A stretch of DNA of 64,000 bases from Sinorhizobium sp. 8-89 (GTDB taxonomy: Bacteria > Pseudomonadota > Alphaproteobacteria > Rhizobiales > Rhizobiaceae). The position numbers and the translations under genes are program-made. The notes beneath the pieces are model-generated. The model had not been told where the DNA came from. It was given only the letters and a program-made list of their open reading frames with translations, and made no database searches. Where the stretch lies: contig NZ_JASKLR010000007.1 in the NCBI RefSeq assembly GCF_030124325.1, positions 124,001 through 188,000 on the forward strand. The letters are read 5' to 3'. Shown in pieces: positions 28,987 through 35,020 of the stretch (within the stretch, counting starts at the first letter, position 1; each line of letters begins with the position of its first letter).

Positions 28987-29119
28987 GCCGCAGTCCGGCT
29001 ACAAAGCTTTTCGACGGTTGAGGGGGCAGGGCGCCAATGGCCGCGTACAAGGGAGGGACCGCGGCCAGCGACGCCGCAGCGGCTGGCAACCTCGCCAGGG
29101 TGCGCGCACCCAGAGCCGC

Positions 29120-29785
29120 TCAACCTTCCAACATGTGATCCGCCAGGCTGTAGCAGTGGCTCGCCTGATAGGCGTTCCGACCTCGGTTCATGTGCGTCAG
29201 ATTGAAAGTCCGAATGGCGCGCAACACGCGGCGGGTCGCGAGGAACTTGCGGATAGAAGCGGAGGCCCGCACATTGATGCCGAAAATGTCCTCGCCGCGC
29301 GGGAAGAAATAACCGACGTCTTCAGCCGTCGTGACGCAGTGCTCGAGAAAGGGCTCGTCCACATGGCCCTGCGCGGGTGACTGGTCCGTCGTGAAATCCG
29401 AAAGATGCACCAGGAATCTCGCACGGATGCCCTCGCCGTCCGCATAGACCGTGAAAAGCTCCATCCAACTCGCATTAACGCGGACAAGCGGCTTGTCGGA
29501 GGTCGACGGCAGACAAGAAACCGACCAGTAGTGACGCTCGGTCTTGCGCGGGACGGGGATGCAGTTTTGGCCGTAGAGTCTCAGAATCTCCAGAACTTCT
29601 TGTGCTTGCGGGTGACGAAGAAGCTTCTGAAACCGCGCGACGTACTTGAACCGCTGTTCCAGGGACTCCGAACGCTCGTCGGCGTCATGCAAGTTCGTCT
29701 CGCCTTCTATCCAATTGCGCTGCTGCTCAAGATCAAGAAATTGGCGCAGACCAGTGGTGGTGCTGCGGCGAGGAGGCGTGCTCAT
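29120..29785 (-). CDS. Protein of unknown function
   Basis: A 221-aa soluble protein (234 aa from GTG 29824) that I do not recognise. It has no signal peptide, membrane segment or known motif. It is basic and rich in Arg, with a coiled-coil-prone N-terminus (FLDLEQQRNWIEGE) and a C-terminus ending NAYQASHCYSLADHMLEG. Start ATG 29785 follows a weak upstream region; GTG 29824 is an alternative. It lies between the TetR/NTF2 pair and the guaA-linked island, about 180 bp from the left att-like repeat, and may be accessory DNA. Confidence 0.6.
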   Translation of the reverse strand: MSTPPRRSTTTGLRQFLDLEQQRNWIEGETNLHDADERSESLEQRFKYVARFQKLLRHPQAQEVLEILRLYGQNCIPVPRKTERHYWSVSCLPSTSDKPLVRVNASWMELFTVYADGEGIRARFLVHLSDFTTDQSPAQGHVDEPFLEHCVTTAEDVGYFFPRGEDIFGINVRASASIRKFLATRRVLRAIRTFNLTHMNRGRNAYQASHCYSLADHMLEG

Positions 29786-29962
29786 GTCAGGTGCATCCGA
29801 TCGTCCTCCCGCGAAGTGCCGCACCCGACACGACGCGACTTGTGACCCTTTGCTAGATCGACCCTATGCCCGTCGATAGGTGCCAATAGGAAGCGTCTTA
29901 TTTTGTATCAGCATTTATGGCGTGCTCTGGCGCAGAATCCGATACCGTCGGATGGGCAGAAA

Positions 29963-29980
29963 TCACTCCCACTCGATTGT
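29963..29980 (+). repeat. Left att-like direct repeat of the guaA 3' end
   Basis: TCACTCCCACTCGATTGT matches the guaA 3' terminus (33458-33475, TCACTCCCACTCGATCGT) at 17 of 18 positions in the same orientation. A duplication of the end of guaA is what integration by a tyrosine recombinase at this known hotspot leaves behind. The 3.5 kb between the copies is thus a candidate integrated element. Confidence 0.65.
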
Positions 29981-30186
29981 TCTAAGTCTAGTTAGGCCAT
30001 TAATATAGCTAGGTTTTTTATTCGTTGCCGCGCAAGAAGCCGACCCATGGGCCGCCAAAACGTTACGGTCTTGATTTCAAAGGGAAAAATAGCACGAAAA
30101 TTTTGTGCGGTTTCGGCATCTATCGAAGTCGATCGCCTTTCCGGACCCACTTTGGGCAACTCAGGTGGGTTTCACAGCGAACGAAG

Positions 30187-30198
30187 AAAGTACCGTCA
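30187..30198 (+). repeat. 12-bp repeat, left-end copy
   Basis: AAAGTACCGTCA, identical to four copies at the other end of the island near 33121-33279 (plus one with a mismatch). It is about 210 bp inside the left att-like repeat. A candidate recombinase arm-type site. Confidence 0.5.
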
Positions 30199-30282
30199 CC
30201 AACTTTCATAGCAGAGGGCGCGCCACAACGCGACCCGCCGCGGCAGCGTCATCCAAGCGCCGTCCCTCTCCGTTTGTAGGTG

Positions 30283-30338
30283 AACTGGATACCGCTGGCA
30301 GTGCAAACTAGACACTCCCGGCAGCATAAACTGGACAC
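30283..30338 (+). mobile_element. IS21-like terminal repeat relic
   Basis: AACTGGATAC (30283), AACTAGACAC (30306) and AACTGGACAC (30329) recur at exactly 23-bp spacing, with a common GGCAG inside each unit. Multiple short, regularly spaced terminal repeats of this type are found at the ends of IS21-family elements. No transposase is present, so only a remnant end is suggested. The family assignment is a guess from structure. Confidence 0.4.
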
Positions 30339-30358
30339 CTCAAGACCCACCCGCTCCG

Positions 30359-30398
30359 AGGGCGCGACAGCACGGTTCAAGGTGCAATGTCGCGCCCT
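30359..30398. repeat. 11-bp perfect inverted repeat
   Basis: AGGGCGCGACA (30359-30369) pairs perfectly with TGTCGCGCCCT (30388-30398). It lies about 90 bp after the stop of the methyltransferase on the minus strand and could be a terminator for it, though it lacks a T tract. Confidence 0.4.
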
Positions 30399-30487
30399 CG
30401 CTTGCTGAACTTCTTCCCGGAGGGGTCGCGGCAAGGAAGCCGGTGCTGGTTTATCAGAAGGCCCCGCAGGCGGCAGCGGCGGAATAG

Positions 30488-30961
30488 TCAGAGCCAGCGG
30501 CGAACCTCGGCCTTGTAGCGGCGGTAGTCGTCGCCGAACTTCGCTTCGAGATAGCGCTCCTCGAGGGCTATCACCTGCGTCTGGATCGCGATCAGCACCA
30601 ACGGGAGCAAGGCGAAGGCGATCGGCCCGTCGAAGCCGATCGCAAGGCCGGCATAGATAAGCGCCATGCCGAGATACATGGGATTGCGGGTCCACCGATA
30701 AGGACCGGTCGTTGCGATGAGGGTCGTTGGCTGCGACGGCGGAACGTTGGTGCCCAGCCGCCGGAACAGCCCCGCCGCCGCAAGCATTATCGCCGCGCCG
30801 GCAACGAGCAGCAGCGCGCCCGTCGCGACCAGCAACCGCCAGTCGATGCCGAAAGAGCGCAGGGTGACGAACCGCTCCGCCGCCAGCCCCAACAGCAGCG
30901 CTCCCAGATAGACGAAGGGCGGAGGGAAGCGGACCCCCGCGCTGTCCGGTTCGACGGCCAT
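30488..30961 (-). CDS. Isoprenylcysteine carboxyl methyltransferase-family protein
   Basis: A 157-aa membrane protein with four predicted helices. The C-terminal signature GPYRWTRNPMYLGMALIYAG, followed by EERYLEAKFGDDYRRYKAEV, is that of the ICMT/PEMT superfamily (SAM-dependent, acting at the membrane). Bacterial members are of uncertain substrate. ATG 30961 is favoured by GGAG six bases upstream. It follows the thioredoxin-reductase-like gene within the island, 21 bp apart. Confidence 0.85.
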   Translation of the reverse strand: MAVEPDSAGVRFPPPFVYLGALLLGLAAERFVTLRSFGIDWRLLVATGALLLVAGAAIMLAAAGLFRRLGTNVPPSQPTTLIATTGPYRWTRNPMYLGMALIYAGLAIGFDGPIAFALLPLVLIAIQTQVIALEERYLEAKFGDDYRRYKAEVRRWL

Positions 30962-30982
30962 GCTCATCTCCAATCTGTGCTT

Positions 30983-31876
30983 TCAAACCAGCATCGACTG
31001 CTGGGCGGAGATGCCCGCGGTCGCGCCGTGCGATGATGCCAAAGTGACCGAGGGCATGAGGGGGTTGGCGAGGTCGCCCGCGGCGTAAATGCCGGGCATG
31101 TTGGTTTCGCGGCGCTCGTCGACCTTGAGGGCGATGCCGAGGGGCGTATCGACCGTGGCGAGGCCCAGTGATTCATGCAGGCTTGCGGACGGCTTGTTGC
31201 GCGGATGCGCGAACAGGATGTCGACCGCGACATTGGGGCCGGTATCGAGCTTGACGGTGGCGTTATGGCCCCCGTGATGGGCGATCTCGGTGATCCGGCC
31301 ATCGACGACAGGTATGTTGCGGCGCGCCAGATCGGCCCGGATATCGGGCGGAATGTCGTGACCATCGGCGAAGAGCGTCAACCTGTCGGTCCAGTCGTGG
31401 AACAGTCTGACATGATTGTGCGACTGCCGGCCGGACCAGACGAGGCCCCAATGCTGGCCGGCGACTTCAAAGCCGTCGCAATAGGGGCAGGGCACGATGG
31501 ACGTGCCCCAGCCTTCGGCAAAGCCCGGAACATCAGGCATCTGGTCGGCGACGCCATAGCTCAGGATCAGGCGGCGCGCCCTAAGGCTTTCGCCATCGCC
31601 AGTGAGGACGGAGAAATCGTCGATGGCGCCGGAGATGCTGTCGGCCCGGGCATTAACCAGCCTGATCGTGGGATAGCGCGCTAGCTGCTGCCGCGCCTCG
31701 GCCAGGATGTCCAGCGGTGGCTTGTGATCGTGGCCGAGCAGGCCATGCGAGTGGCCGGCGAAGCGGTTGCGCGGCAGGCCGGTATCGAGAACGGTGACCT
31801 TGCGGCGGGCACGGCCGAGCTGCAGGGCGCCGGCGAGACCGGCAAAGCTGCCGCCGATGATGATGACGTCATCCAT
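30983..31876 (-). CDS. Thioredoxin-reductase-like FAD/NAD(P) oxidoreductase
   Basis: A 297-aa flavoprotein of the thioredoxin reductase superfamily. The FAD-binding start is VIIIGGSFAGLAGALQLGRA; the redox CPYC motif (VPCPYCDGFEV) is at about residue 133; the C-terminal AAGDL closes the FAD domain. The substrate may be thioredoxin-like or another disulfide; many similar proteins are not true thioredoxin reductases. ATG 31876 has GGAG nine bases upstream; the 42-residue upstream extension in the frame is unlike the family. It is divergent from a TetR gene and followed by an ICMT-like gene. Confidence 0.88.
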   Translation of the reverse strand: MDDVIIIGGSFAGLAGALQLGRARRKVTVLDTGLPRNRFAGHSHGLLGHDHKPPLDILAEARQQLARYPTIRLVNARADSISGAIDDFSVLTGDGESLRARRLILSYGVADQMPDVPGFAEGWGTSIVPCPYCDGFEVAGQHWGLVWSGRQSHNHVRLFHDWTDRLTLFADGHDIPPDIRADLARRNIPVVDGRITEIAHHGGHNATVKLDTGPNVAVDILFAHPRNKPSASLHESLGLATVDTPLGIALKVDERRETNMPGIYAAGDLANPLMPSVTLASSHGATAGISAQQSMLV

Positions 31877-32118
31877 GGTGATAAGCTCCGTGTTGTGGAT
31901 GGAGGGGTTGGGCCGGGCCTGGCGCGAAATATCGTCCAGCGATACGCGCCCGAGACGGGCAGCGAGCAGGGCTTCGGCATCGACGAGAGAGTCGCCCATC
32001 ACTGTTTTGGCCGGCCGGACAATGCCGCATTCGATATCGCCGGGCGGCCCCGGGGAAACTTGCTTTGGAGGACAAGTTGAAATCTACCCGTTGGCTTGCA
32101 TATTTCAGGTACTACATG

Positions 32119-32144
32119 GTATCGTAATGCAAGAATTAGGATAC
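32119..32144. promoter_or_regulatory. Inverted repeat, candidate operator of island TetR
   Basis: GTATCGTAAT (32119-32128) and ATTAGGATAC (32135-32144) form a 10+6+10 inverted repeat with one mismatched pair. It lies 20 bp before the GTG start of the TetR gene, in the divergent region of the thioredoxin-reductase-like gene. The arrangement fits TetR autoregulation. Confidence 0.5.
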
Positions 32145-32164
32145 TGTCAAGGACTGGAATTGTC

Positions 32165-32812
32165 GTGACCGAAAATAGCCAGGGCCGGCGCGGCCGGCCC
32201 GCCAACCAGGCGCTTGGCCAAACGATAGTCGACGCCGCGTGCGAACTCTTTGTGGAATTGGGTTTTCAAGCGACGACATTGGACAAGGTCGCCCAGCGGG
32301 CGAGGATATCCAAGCTCAGCATCTATCGGCACTTCGAGAACAAGGAGGCGCTGTTCAGCGCGGCCATCGCGGCCCGCTGCCATCAGTTTGCACCACAGGC
32401 CCTTTTTGAAGGCGTCGACGGTTCGGCCGAAGATCAACTCATGGCGGTGGGATCATCCCTGCTTCGCACGCTGTTGAGCTCGGACGTCCGCAGTGTCGAA
32501 GCCATGATCATGGCCGACAAGACGAATCAAAAGTCGTTAAGCAAGCTCCATTACGAAGCCGGCCCCGCCCATGTCATCGCCCAAATCGAGGCCCTGTTGC
32601 GTCAGTTGCACGCGAAGGCGGTTCTGAACGTGCCCGATCCTCTCCGGTCCGCCCGCTTGTTTGCCGCGCTTTTCAAAGGATCCGATCTCCTGATTATCGC
32701 ACGCTTCGATGAGGCGAGGGCAGAGGACGACAACGAAATCGAATCCTATTGCCGGTCGGCCGTCGCCATGTTCATCGCCGCGCACGGTGGCAACGACCAC
32801 GCGGGCGGATAA
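32165..32812 (+). CDS. TetR-family transcriptional regulator
   Basis: A 215-aa TetR repressor. The HTH reads AACELFVELGFQATTLDKVA, then ISKLSIYRHFENKEALF; a TetR_C_39-like C-terminal domain follows. Start GTG 32165 gives the typical short Arg-rich N-terminus; the frame is open to 32096 without homology. It is divergent from the flavoprotein gene and probably controls it through the inverted repeat at 32119. Confidence 0.9.
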   Translation: MTENSQGRRGRPANQALGQTIVDAACELFVELGFQATTLDKVAQRARISKLSIYRHFENKEALFSAAIAARCHQFAPQALFEGVDGSAEDQLMAVGSSLLRTLLSSDVRSVEAMIMADKTNQKSLSKLHYEAGPAHVIAQIEALLRQLHAKAVLNVPDPLRSARLFAALFKGSDLLIIARFDEARAEDDNEIESYCRSAVAMFIAAHGGNDHAGG

Positions 32813-33457
32813 GCATTTGATTGCTACGGGCAGCTTGGCCGGGAGCGTGGTCCAGGCGCTTCGTCATATTGGGCCGGCGCGCGGCCGAGCTTACACAGAT
32901 CGCGGCACCTCATCTTTCTCCCAACGATAAAAAGACGCGCGCATCTACCGCATCCAAGCTCCCGCCTGGATGCGGTCGACGCTTCTCTCCATCGCAGATC
33001 CGGCAGCAGTCGGGACAACATTTGATAGGTGATGCGACGGTGCCATCCGACGATATGCAATCGGGTCCGGAACATTGATCGGTACCGCAGCCTAAGCTGA
33101 AACTATGTATGTCGATAACTAAAGTACCGTCAGCGCGGAAATGTCATGCTACGGGCAATTTTCGTTATATATTTCAAATGATTGACACACAGAAAAGTAC
33201 CGTCAAACCCTAAAAACGAATGACGGTACTTTTTAGAATGCTCTGTCGGATGCGAAAAGCACCGTCAAAAGTACCGTCAGGTGATCTGCTACAAGCTGCG
33301 AGCCGCGCCATGCGCTCCGATTCTCAACGATTTCAATGACTTGATGGGTTTGTCAATTCCATTGATAATGTGCCCTGGCTAGCAGTCTGCCCTGCCCACA
33401 AATCATTGTATTTTCTGGGAAATTCTACGGTAGAGCCGCCTATCATCGCCGTTTCCC
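32813..33457. other. 645-bp gene-free right end of the guaA island
   Basis: No gene is supported here. The right half (about 33080-33450) is A+T-rich and carries five of the six 12-bp AAAGTACCGTCA motifs, two of them (33194 and 33221) in inverted orientation forming a stem, and two (33256, 33268) in tandem. No integrase or transposase remnant is recognisable in any frame. Confidence 0.7.
33121..33279. repeat. Cluster of five 12-bp AAAGTACCGTCA repeats
   Basis: Copies at 33121-33132, 33194-33205, 33221-33232 (minus strand), 33256-33267 (AAAGCACCGTCA, one mismatch) and 33268-33279, the last two exactly adjacent. A further copy is at 30187 near the other island end. Clustered short direct repeats flanking a core site are how arm-type binding sites of tyrosine recombinases are arranged. 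Iterons are an alternative reading. Confidence 0.6.

Positions 33458-35020
<1,563 letters not shown>

Follow-up and report, generated by a model that had tools for sequence, protein, structure and literature searches.

The window analyzed here, a 64,000-nucleotide stretch of contig NZ_JASKLR010000007.1 from Sinorhizobium sp. 8-89, contains a 3.5-kb segment adjoining the 3′ end of a gene that we take to be guaA (GMP synthase), the name coming from the first-pass annotation of this DNA and from the known protein family, not from a domain search. The segment is bounded by two copies of the guaA 3′ end, holds three cargo genes, and has at both ends short repeats that are read below as integrase arm sites. 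It is probably an integrase-less genomic island that depends on integrases encoded elsewhere. The features of the locus, in window coordinates, are as follows.

29963..30425, no strand: left end of the element, A+T-rich in its outer part
29963..29980, plus strand: left attachment (att) core, matching the guaA 3′ end at 17 of 18 positions; GATTGTT on its inner side is common to other element ends
30189..30198, plus strand: left arm AGTACCGTCA, 222 bp inside the left core
30488..30973, minus strand: small PEMT/ICMT-type methyltransferase, 161 aa, Pfam PF04191 and PF04140
30983..31876, minus strand: FAD/NAD(P) oxidoreductase, thioredoxin-reductase-like, PF07992 (Pyr_redox_2); a longer start is possible at 32002
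32165..32812, plus strand: TetR/AefR-like regulator, PF00440 and PF14246, divergent from the oxidoreductase; a longer start is possible at 32096
32813..33457, no strand: A+T-rich right end of the element, containing the five right-end arms
33123..33132, plus strand: right-end arm AGTACCGTCA, farthest from guaA
33196..33205, plus strand: right-end arm AGTACCGTCA
33221..33230, minus strand: right-end arm AGTACCGTCA, inverted
33258..33267, plus strand: right-end arm with one mismatch (AGCACCGTCA)
33270..33279, plus strand: right-end arm AGTACCGTCA, nearest guaA
33458..33475, plus strand: right att core, identical to the last 18 bp of guaA
33458..35020, minus strand: guaA, the target gene, placed by its open reading frame (ORF), which is kept intact, and by the empty-site comparison

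The last 18 bp of guaA (TCACTCCCACTCGATCGT in the window orientation; 33458-33475) recur in direct orientation at 29963-29980 with one mismatch. At up to three mismatches, these are the only two matches in the window, compared with a mean of 0.07 in dinucleotide shuffles, none of 100 of which contained two; this count, which covers the window, shows that the repeat is not a chance match there. In the 7.06-Mb genome, the related pattern AYTCCCACTCGATTGTT matches once, and no further att core lies elsewhere in the window. Measured between the att cores, the element is 3513 bp long. Its ends are A+T-richer (GC content 0.449 for 29963-30120 and 0.463 for 33080-33457, vs 0.624 for the window), and no integrase was seen among the ORFs of at least 70 aa. 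A tblastn search of 29001-34000 with the integrase IntG, introduced below, revealed no integrase fragment either (best E value 0.59). The first-pass annotation had described the repeat, the A+T-rich ends, the lack of an integrase, and the methyltransferase, thioredoxin-reductase-like, and TetR genes, and each of these observations was confirmed, the genes by ORFs and Pfam alike.

Conservation of the segment in all relatives would have spoken against an island, as the first-pass annotation pointed out. A same-genus set of 33 genomes, including that of the window, was searched; 32 matched, and the region downstream of guaA was compared in 31 of the 32 relatives, G030 being without a match. An empty site was found in G018, where the left flank (up to 29980) directly adjoins guaA (from 33458), with an overlap of exactly 18 bp and so a single copy of the 18-mer; the window flanks, joined at the core, are 94.0% identical to this site over 1001 columns. 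Only four of the 31 relatives have a second core (G014, G015, G016, and G017, at 1259, 1260, 2776, and 3410 bp from guaA) and 27 have none, indicating a patchy distribution. The sequence GTACCGTCA occurs within 4 kb of guaA only in the same four genomes. In G016, homology stops at the core, and the outer left flank is without a match.

Within the window, AGTACCGTCA was found eight times at up to one mismatch, compared with 1.21 expected and with none of 100 shuffles reaching eight; six of the eight copies lie in the element ends. An inverted AGTACCGTCA-type pair, sought across the genome_contigs collection (84,980 species), was present at 25 loci. A P4-like tyrosine integrase was detected directly beside the arms in 13 of them, which come from Betaproteobacteria, Zetaproteobacteria, and Gammaproteobacteria, one record being labelled no further than Proteobacteria. 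ARAGORN detected a tRNA gene on the arm side in 13/13 of these loci, which is the usual layout of P4-like integrase islands, and the L094 integrase, the only one that was domain-scanned, contains PF13356 (Arm-DNA-bind_3), PF22022 (Phage_int_M), and PF00589 (Phage_integrase). No integrase was detected beside the pair in the remaining 12 loci (nine from Alphaproteobacteria, as well as L081, L089, and L099), the pair of L089 and of L081 being near the edge of the stretch. Since integrases adjoin the arm pairs and tRNA genes lie on the arm side, the motif is most simply read as an integrase arm site. A same-orientation arm-pair pattern was spaced too tightly and missed even the window's own element, and its null results carry no weight. 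Other repeated TACC-based motifs (TACCAACAA, TACCCCCAA, TACCACCA, and TACCCGCA) were seen upstream of P4-like integrases in L117, L118, L119, L121, L122, L127, L142-L148, L153, L160, and L165. Perhaps this variety reflects an arm-site code that could be read from the arm-binding domain; L120 does not fit the idea, and many loci are without any such repeat.

The integrase family with matching ends is that of IntG, the guaA integrase of the Mesorhizobium tripartite integrative and conjugative elements (ICEs), as described in PMC8627217. The query was a P4-like integrase of 417 aa (L110) directly beside guaA of M. ciceri WSM4083, which is called IntG on the basis of its position and that paper, not of its record annotation. 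Relatives of this protein (E <= 1e-70) were found in 62/388 genomes of the family, and 30 loci were compared, being the best match per genome in 30 of the 62 genomes. The guaA gene lies within the same stretch in 29/30 loci, at least one TACCGTCA lies no more than 700 bp upstream of the integrase in 30/30, and AGTACCGTCA does so in 19/30. An exact arm trio at +171-173, -195-197, and -267-269 from the core, with a spacing of about 24/72, was observed in 18/30 loci; the trio of the window element lies at +233, -256, and -329, with a spacing of 23/73 and an offset of about 60 bp. Its arms at -182 and -194 (one mismatch) correspond to the exact arms at -119 and -131 in L182, which is the only one of the 30 loci to have all five arms at the spacing of the window (12/40/24/74 vs 12/39/23/73). 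These arm counts include L171, whose stretch has no core-and-arm set, and L185, for which a wrong near-core was taken. The window element has the marks of an IntG-type att end: the core CACTCCCACTCGAT in the guaA 3′ end, TACCGTCA arms that agree in order and spacing with those lying between core and integrase in the IntG loci, and a further arm at about 220 bp from the distal core, on its inner side (222 bp in the window element). Arms of a helper need not match exactly, given that IntG of M. ciceri has TTTACCGTCA arms instead of AGTACCGTCA.

Left ends were examined across the family by searching for AYTCCCACTCGATTGTT, which revealed 24 sites in 22/388 genomes, two of them guaA ends and 22 other left ends. 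A TACCGTCA arm lies 214-226 bp inside the core in 14 of these 22, and in six of the 14 the arm is AGTACCGTCA in an IntG-carrying genome; the arm-bearing left ends include those of the IntG-carrying genomes G329, G110, G074, G377, G299, G104, and G242. The left end of the window element is closest to those of G364 (88% over 189 bp) and G095 (79% over 259 bp), in neither of which IntG was found, followed by those of two IntG carriers, G110 (80% identity over 181 bp) and G299 (79% identity over 164 bp). In G100, an IntG island of roughly 12.5 kb lies with its two cores in one stretch, the left arm being at 233 bp.

Other sources of a helper were considered. Three P4-like integrases are encoded in the genome of the window strain (L118, L127, and L135), none with TACCGTCA in the 300 bp upstream, and a helper within this genome was rejected. 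A viral helper was also rejected, the arm-pair pattern matching no record of viral_contigs and the core pattern matching one (L136), which encodes an IntG relative of 66% identity with TTTACCGTCA arms. Relatives of a Duganella integrase occur in 45/297 genomes of the order, with GTACCGTCA upstream in 0/30 loci compared. Two further arrangements were noticed among IntG-bearing genomes. In G379 (L200:16637-17137), a second IntG with arms on both sides lies about 35 kb from the guaA-adjacent IntG, which suggests tandem integrase-bearing islands. In M. neociceri CCANP35 (L114:9779-10343), which also has IntG at guaA with TTTACCGTCA arms, right-end arms, a core, and a left arm are joined in an attP-like manner, with no guaA in the stretch; this might be a tandem junction or part of a tripartite ICE.

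The window element is one of several integrase-less elements at this site, which extends the picture beyond the first-pass annotation, as do the arm sites and the likely helper family. Integrase-less intervals between two cores lie beside guaA in G349 (5.4 kb), G095 (4.8 kb), G315 (2.1 kb), and G159 (1.8 kb), as well as in G325 (Rhizobium sp. P40RR-XXII) and Ensifer sp. LC163, and G364 contains two integrase-less elements in tandem (2.6 and 5.8 kb). The cargo includes a VapC-like toxin with a PIN domain, preceded by a small gene, in G014 (the same ORFs being present in G015), aldehyde dehydrogenase, GFA, and TetR in G017, HSP20 and a sensor kinase in G349, a dienelactone-hydrolase-like protein in G095, YCII and TetR in G315, and 3-hydroxyisobutyrate-dehydrogenase-like and glyoxalase proteins in G364. 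When ten integrase-less right ends were aligned, nine showed at least two exact arms, and G014 showed none. The segment adjoining the guaA core (33399-33475) is common to the right ends of the window element, G014, and G084 (L047, L067/L077; 81-85% identity, core included); it is kept in G014 although that end is without arms, and is absent from the five integrase-bearing ends aligned. In Mesorhizobium sp. LSJC280B00 (L104:7647-17193, L105:7187), four guaA-type cores lie in a row with no integrase detected, and at the outermost core the guaA 3′ end is duplicated over 55 codons.

The same integrase-less form was also found in distant genera. Nucleotide identities of the relatives to the window, in which the between-genus figures rest on single genomes, are 91.1-93.9% for the element vs 86.8% for guaA in Rhizobium P40RR-XXII, 94.8-96.3% vs 90.0% in Ensifer LC163, 93.6-95.4% vs 80.4% in Rhizobiales AFS091992, 94.7-96.2% vs 75.9% in a Xanthobacteraceae metagenome-assembled genome (one contig), and 96.3-96.7% vs 82.2-84.8% in Mesorhizobium LSJC280B00; in the same-genus G016 they are 93.7-94.4% vs 95.8%. 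The identity break falls at the core itself, and outside the left core no match to the left flank was found in G016, G325, LC163, or LSJC280B00. No integrase was detected beside these copies in the stretches compared, and no IntG was found in those genomes. The high identity of the element, set against the lower identity of guaA and broken at the core, is most simply explained if the integrase-less form spread between genera as such, which would be unlike a remnant decaying in place.

The 3513-bp segment is thus likely to be a cargo-only satellite, a genomic island without an integrase of its own that IntG-family integrases recombine in trans or carry in tandem. It is inserted at the guaA 3′ end and has ends of the IntG-family (P4-like, tyrosine) type, with the core CACTCCCACTCGAT and AGTACCGTCA arms on both sides. 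IntG supplied by a co-resident element would bind the satellite arms and would recombine the satellite cores in trans, either with each other or with the guaA core, and the satellite might then excise, re-integrate, or travel in tandem with its helper. The cargo between the ends would be exchangeable, comprising here the methyltransferase, the thioredoxin-reductase-like enzyme, and TetR; the route between cells and the role of the cargo are inferred. The first-pass annotation had left the choice between a decayed element and a satellite mobilized in trans. The satellite alternative fits best because of the empty site, the exact boundaries, the arms at both ends, the IntG integrases with the same core and arms in relatives, and the horizontal spread, while decay of this particular copy retains some probability, since no IntG was found in its own genome or in the 32 same-genus genomes. 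For the same reason the window copy is probably quiescent now, and idle unless a helper arrives.

Several observations weigh against a satellite mobilized in trans. IntG (E <= 1e-50) is absent from the genome of the window strain and from 32 same-genus genomes, was detected in only 2/9 other genomes tested, all of which had been picked as holding arm-bearing sequences, and no helper with ends identical to those of the window was found. The distance from core to first arm is about 60 bp longer in the window than in L182, and L168-L170 have five arms of which the last two are spaced otherwise. At the left ends, an exact arm at 214-233 bp is present in only 7/14 hand-picked cases; G016, G325, LSJC280B00, and M. 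ciceri have no exact left arm, with one-mismatch near matches in LSJC280B00 and M. ciceri. Right-end arms are missing in G014, G015, G349, G095, G315, G159, and G364, and these armless ends of integrase-less relatives may be decayed. Whole copies were not seen in two of the distant genomes, since no left core was found for AFS091992 and the Xanthobacteraceae contig begins inside the element. Finally, mobilization in trans is deduced from comparing sequences, and excision or transfer was not observed.

Part of this evidence would suit a dead remnant, an IntG-type island at guaA that lost its integrase and most of its genes by internal deletion and has since been inherited vertically without moving. 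The lack of IntG in the strain and its 32 genus relatives, the loss of right-end arms in several integrase-less relatives, and the left end of G016 without an exact arm all point that way. However, the same-cargo integrase-less form is found in distant genera at 91-97% identity with adjacent guaA at 76-87%, the boundaries are formed by the core on both sides, no integrase fragment is left, and the window element keeps all six arms, which makes a remnant rather unlikely. A further alternative, to which we give somewhat less credence, is that the segment is carried only in cis, as a cis-mobilizable element (CIME) that is the passenger of an IntG-type ICE integrating in tandem at the same guaA core, the composite being transferred as one. 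The tandem arrays of G364 (two elements) and Mesorhizobium LSJC280B00 (four cores) are in keeping with this, and CIME-ICE tandem transfer has been documented (PMC5704250). The window and G016 copies, however, lie alone beside guaA, which would require that they re-integrated or that the partner was excised. An integrase acting on the att sites would still be needed, and the alternative differs from a satellite mobilized in trans mainly in the route between cells.

Two other explanations carry little weight. Allelic exchange occurs in rhizobia, and a chromosomal region spanning guaA together with the element might have been exchanged between strains by homologous recombination. This is very improbable, because identity shifts at the core (91-97% in the element vs 76-87% in the adjoining guaA) and because no match to the left flank exists outside the core in G016, P40RR-XXII, LC163, and LSJC280B00. 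That the repeat flanks unrelated genes by chance, for which nothing speaks except its shortness, has a negligible probability and was rejected on the basis of the shuffles, the empty site, the patchy second cores, the enrichment of arm sites, and the recurrence of this arrangement in further genomes.

With respect to known classes, the segment shares two features with a CIME: attL and attR flank it (with cores at 29963 and 33458 and an empty counterpart in G018), and no integration or conjugation genes were seen among its ORFs of at least 70 aa or in the Pfam domains of the three genes, which the domain search covered. It is neither an autonomous guaA island nor an ICE, having no integrase of its own, and for the same reason it falls outside the integrative and mobilizable elements (IMEs), which carry their own excision and integration genes as PMC5704250 defines them. 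Integrase-less islands with att sites are already known, namely CIMEs (PMC5704250), the microcin H47 island (PMC3191183), and, at guaA itself, CR2-sul2 (PMC9376610). CIMEs have lost their integration genes, kept attL and attR, and form tandem arrays, but are described as decayed ICEs or IMEs, whereas the present elements are 1.3-5.8 kb long and have the same integrase-less form across genera (PMC5704250). The microcin H47 island of E. coli is likewise small, without recombinase genes, and excised and integrated by functions in trans; it differs in its cargo, in its extensive imperfect direct repeats, and in that the abstract leaves the helper unnamed, whereas a helper family with matching arms is proposed here (PMC3191183). 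The guaA-specific integrase of GIsul2 was shown experimentally to excise and integrate the CR2-sul2 unit, which also lacks its own integrase and is bounded by cores of a guaA-site integrase, but contains an ISCR-type rcr gene and resistance genes and is moved by the island holding it (PMC9376610). In contrast, the elements described here have cargo of a metabolic, redox, or toxin-antitoxin kind, lie at guaA without a nearby integrase, and, in the case of the window, have arms on both sides. The IntG-bearing tripartite ICEs and guaA islands of Mesorhizobium share the guaA target and a tyrosine integrase (PMC8627217). They differ in carrying the integrase and, in M. ciceri, in that the arms are TTTACCGTCA in place of AGTACCGTCA.

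Pseudo-SCC elements and integron cassettes likewise consist of cargo alone and rely on a recombinase provided from elsewhere, but neither their recombinases (Ccr serine recombinases; IntI with attC) nor their sites are related to those considered here. Among the matches listed in a literature search, which left subscription journals mostly outside, none described integrase-less elements at guaA of rhizobia as judged by title or start of the abstract. What appears to be new is the putative IntG-type att architecture, core plus arms, at both ends of an integrase-less guaA element. Many island-finding methods start from the integrase gene, and cargo-only elements are therefore easily missed; the arm sites offer a sequence signature by which such elements can be detected and which points to the enzyme family probably responsible for their movement. 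If this is true, the mobile gene pool at guaA of nitrogen-fixing and other soil bacteria exceeds the list of integrase-bearing islands, and an incoming ICE could redistribute small modules, metabolic or toxin-antitoxin, among families. A broader and more doubtful idea is that guaA in Rhizobiales might be the dock of a cassette economy, in which IntG-family integrases of ICEs would act as a shared service recombinase for cargo-only cassettes of 1.3-5.8 kb, each with core and arms, that stack in tandem and cross family borders. On this tentative view the cassette genes, with metabolic, redox, stress, and toxin-antitoxin functions, would be exchangeable, and the whole would resemble an integron that has no integron integrase in residence.

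The cargo genes of the window gave few further clues. None of the three proteins scanned reaches a curated NCBIfam cut-off, and Pfam, the only resource used for this point, showed no phage-interference, packaging, or replication domains in the three genes, such as a phage satellite (PICI, P4-like) would carry. The methyltransferase segment (element positions 464-1009) is missing in G016, Rhizobium P40RR-XXII (G325), Ensifer LC163, and Mesorhizobium LSJC280B00, and is present in AFS091992 and mostly in G364. The cargo module also lies on rhizobial plasmids, where the ends are lacking: matches were obtained in 86 plasmid records, none covering more than 80% of the query, and in the 20 of the 86 that were listed the matches fall within element positions 464-2849, which is the cargo, with no match to the left end (29963..30425). 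A plasmid origin of the whole element was rejected, the matches in these 20 records covering cargo only. The methyltransferase-oxidoreductase-TetR module (30426-32811) was also found elsewhere in 12 same-genus genomes, at 89-96% identity.

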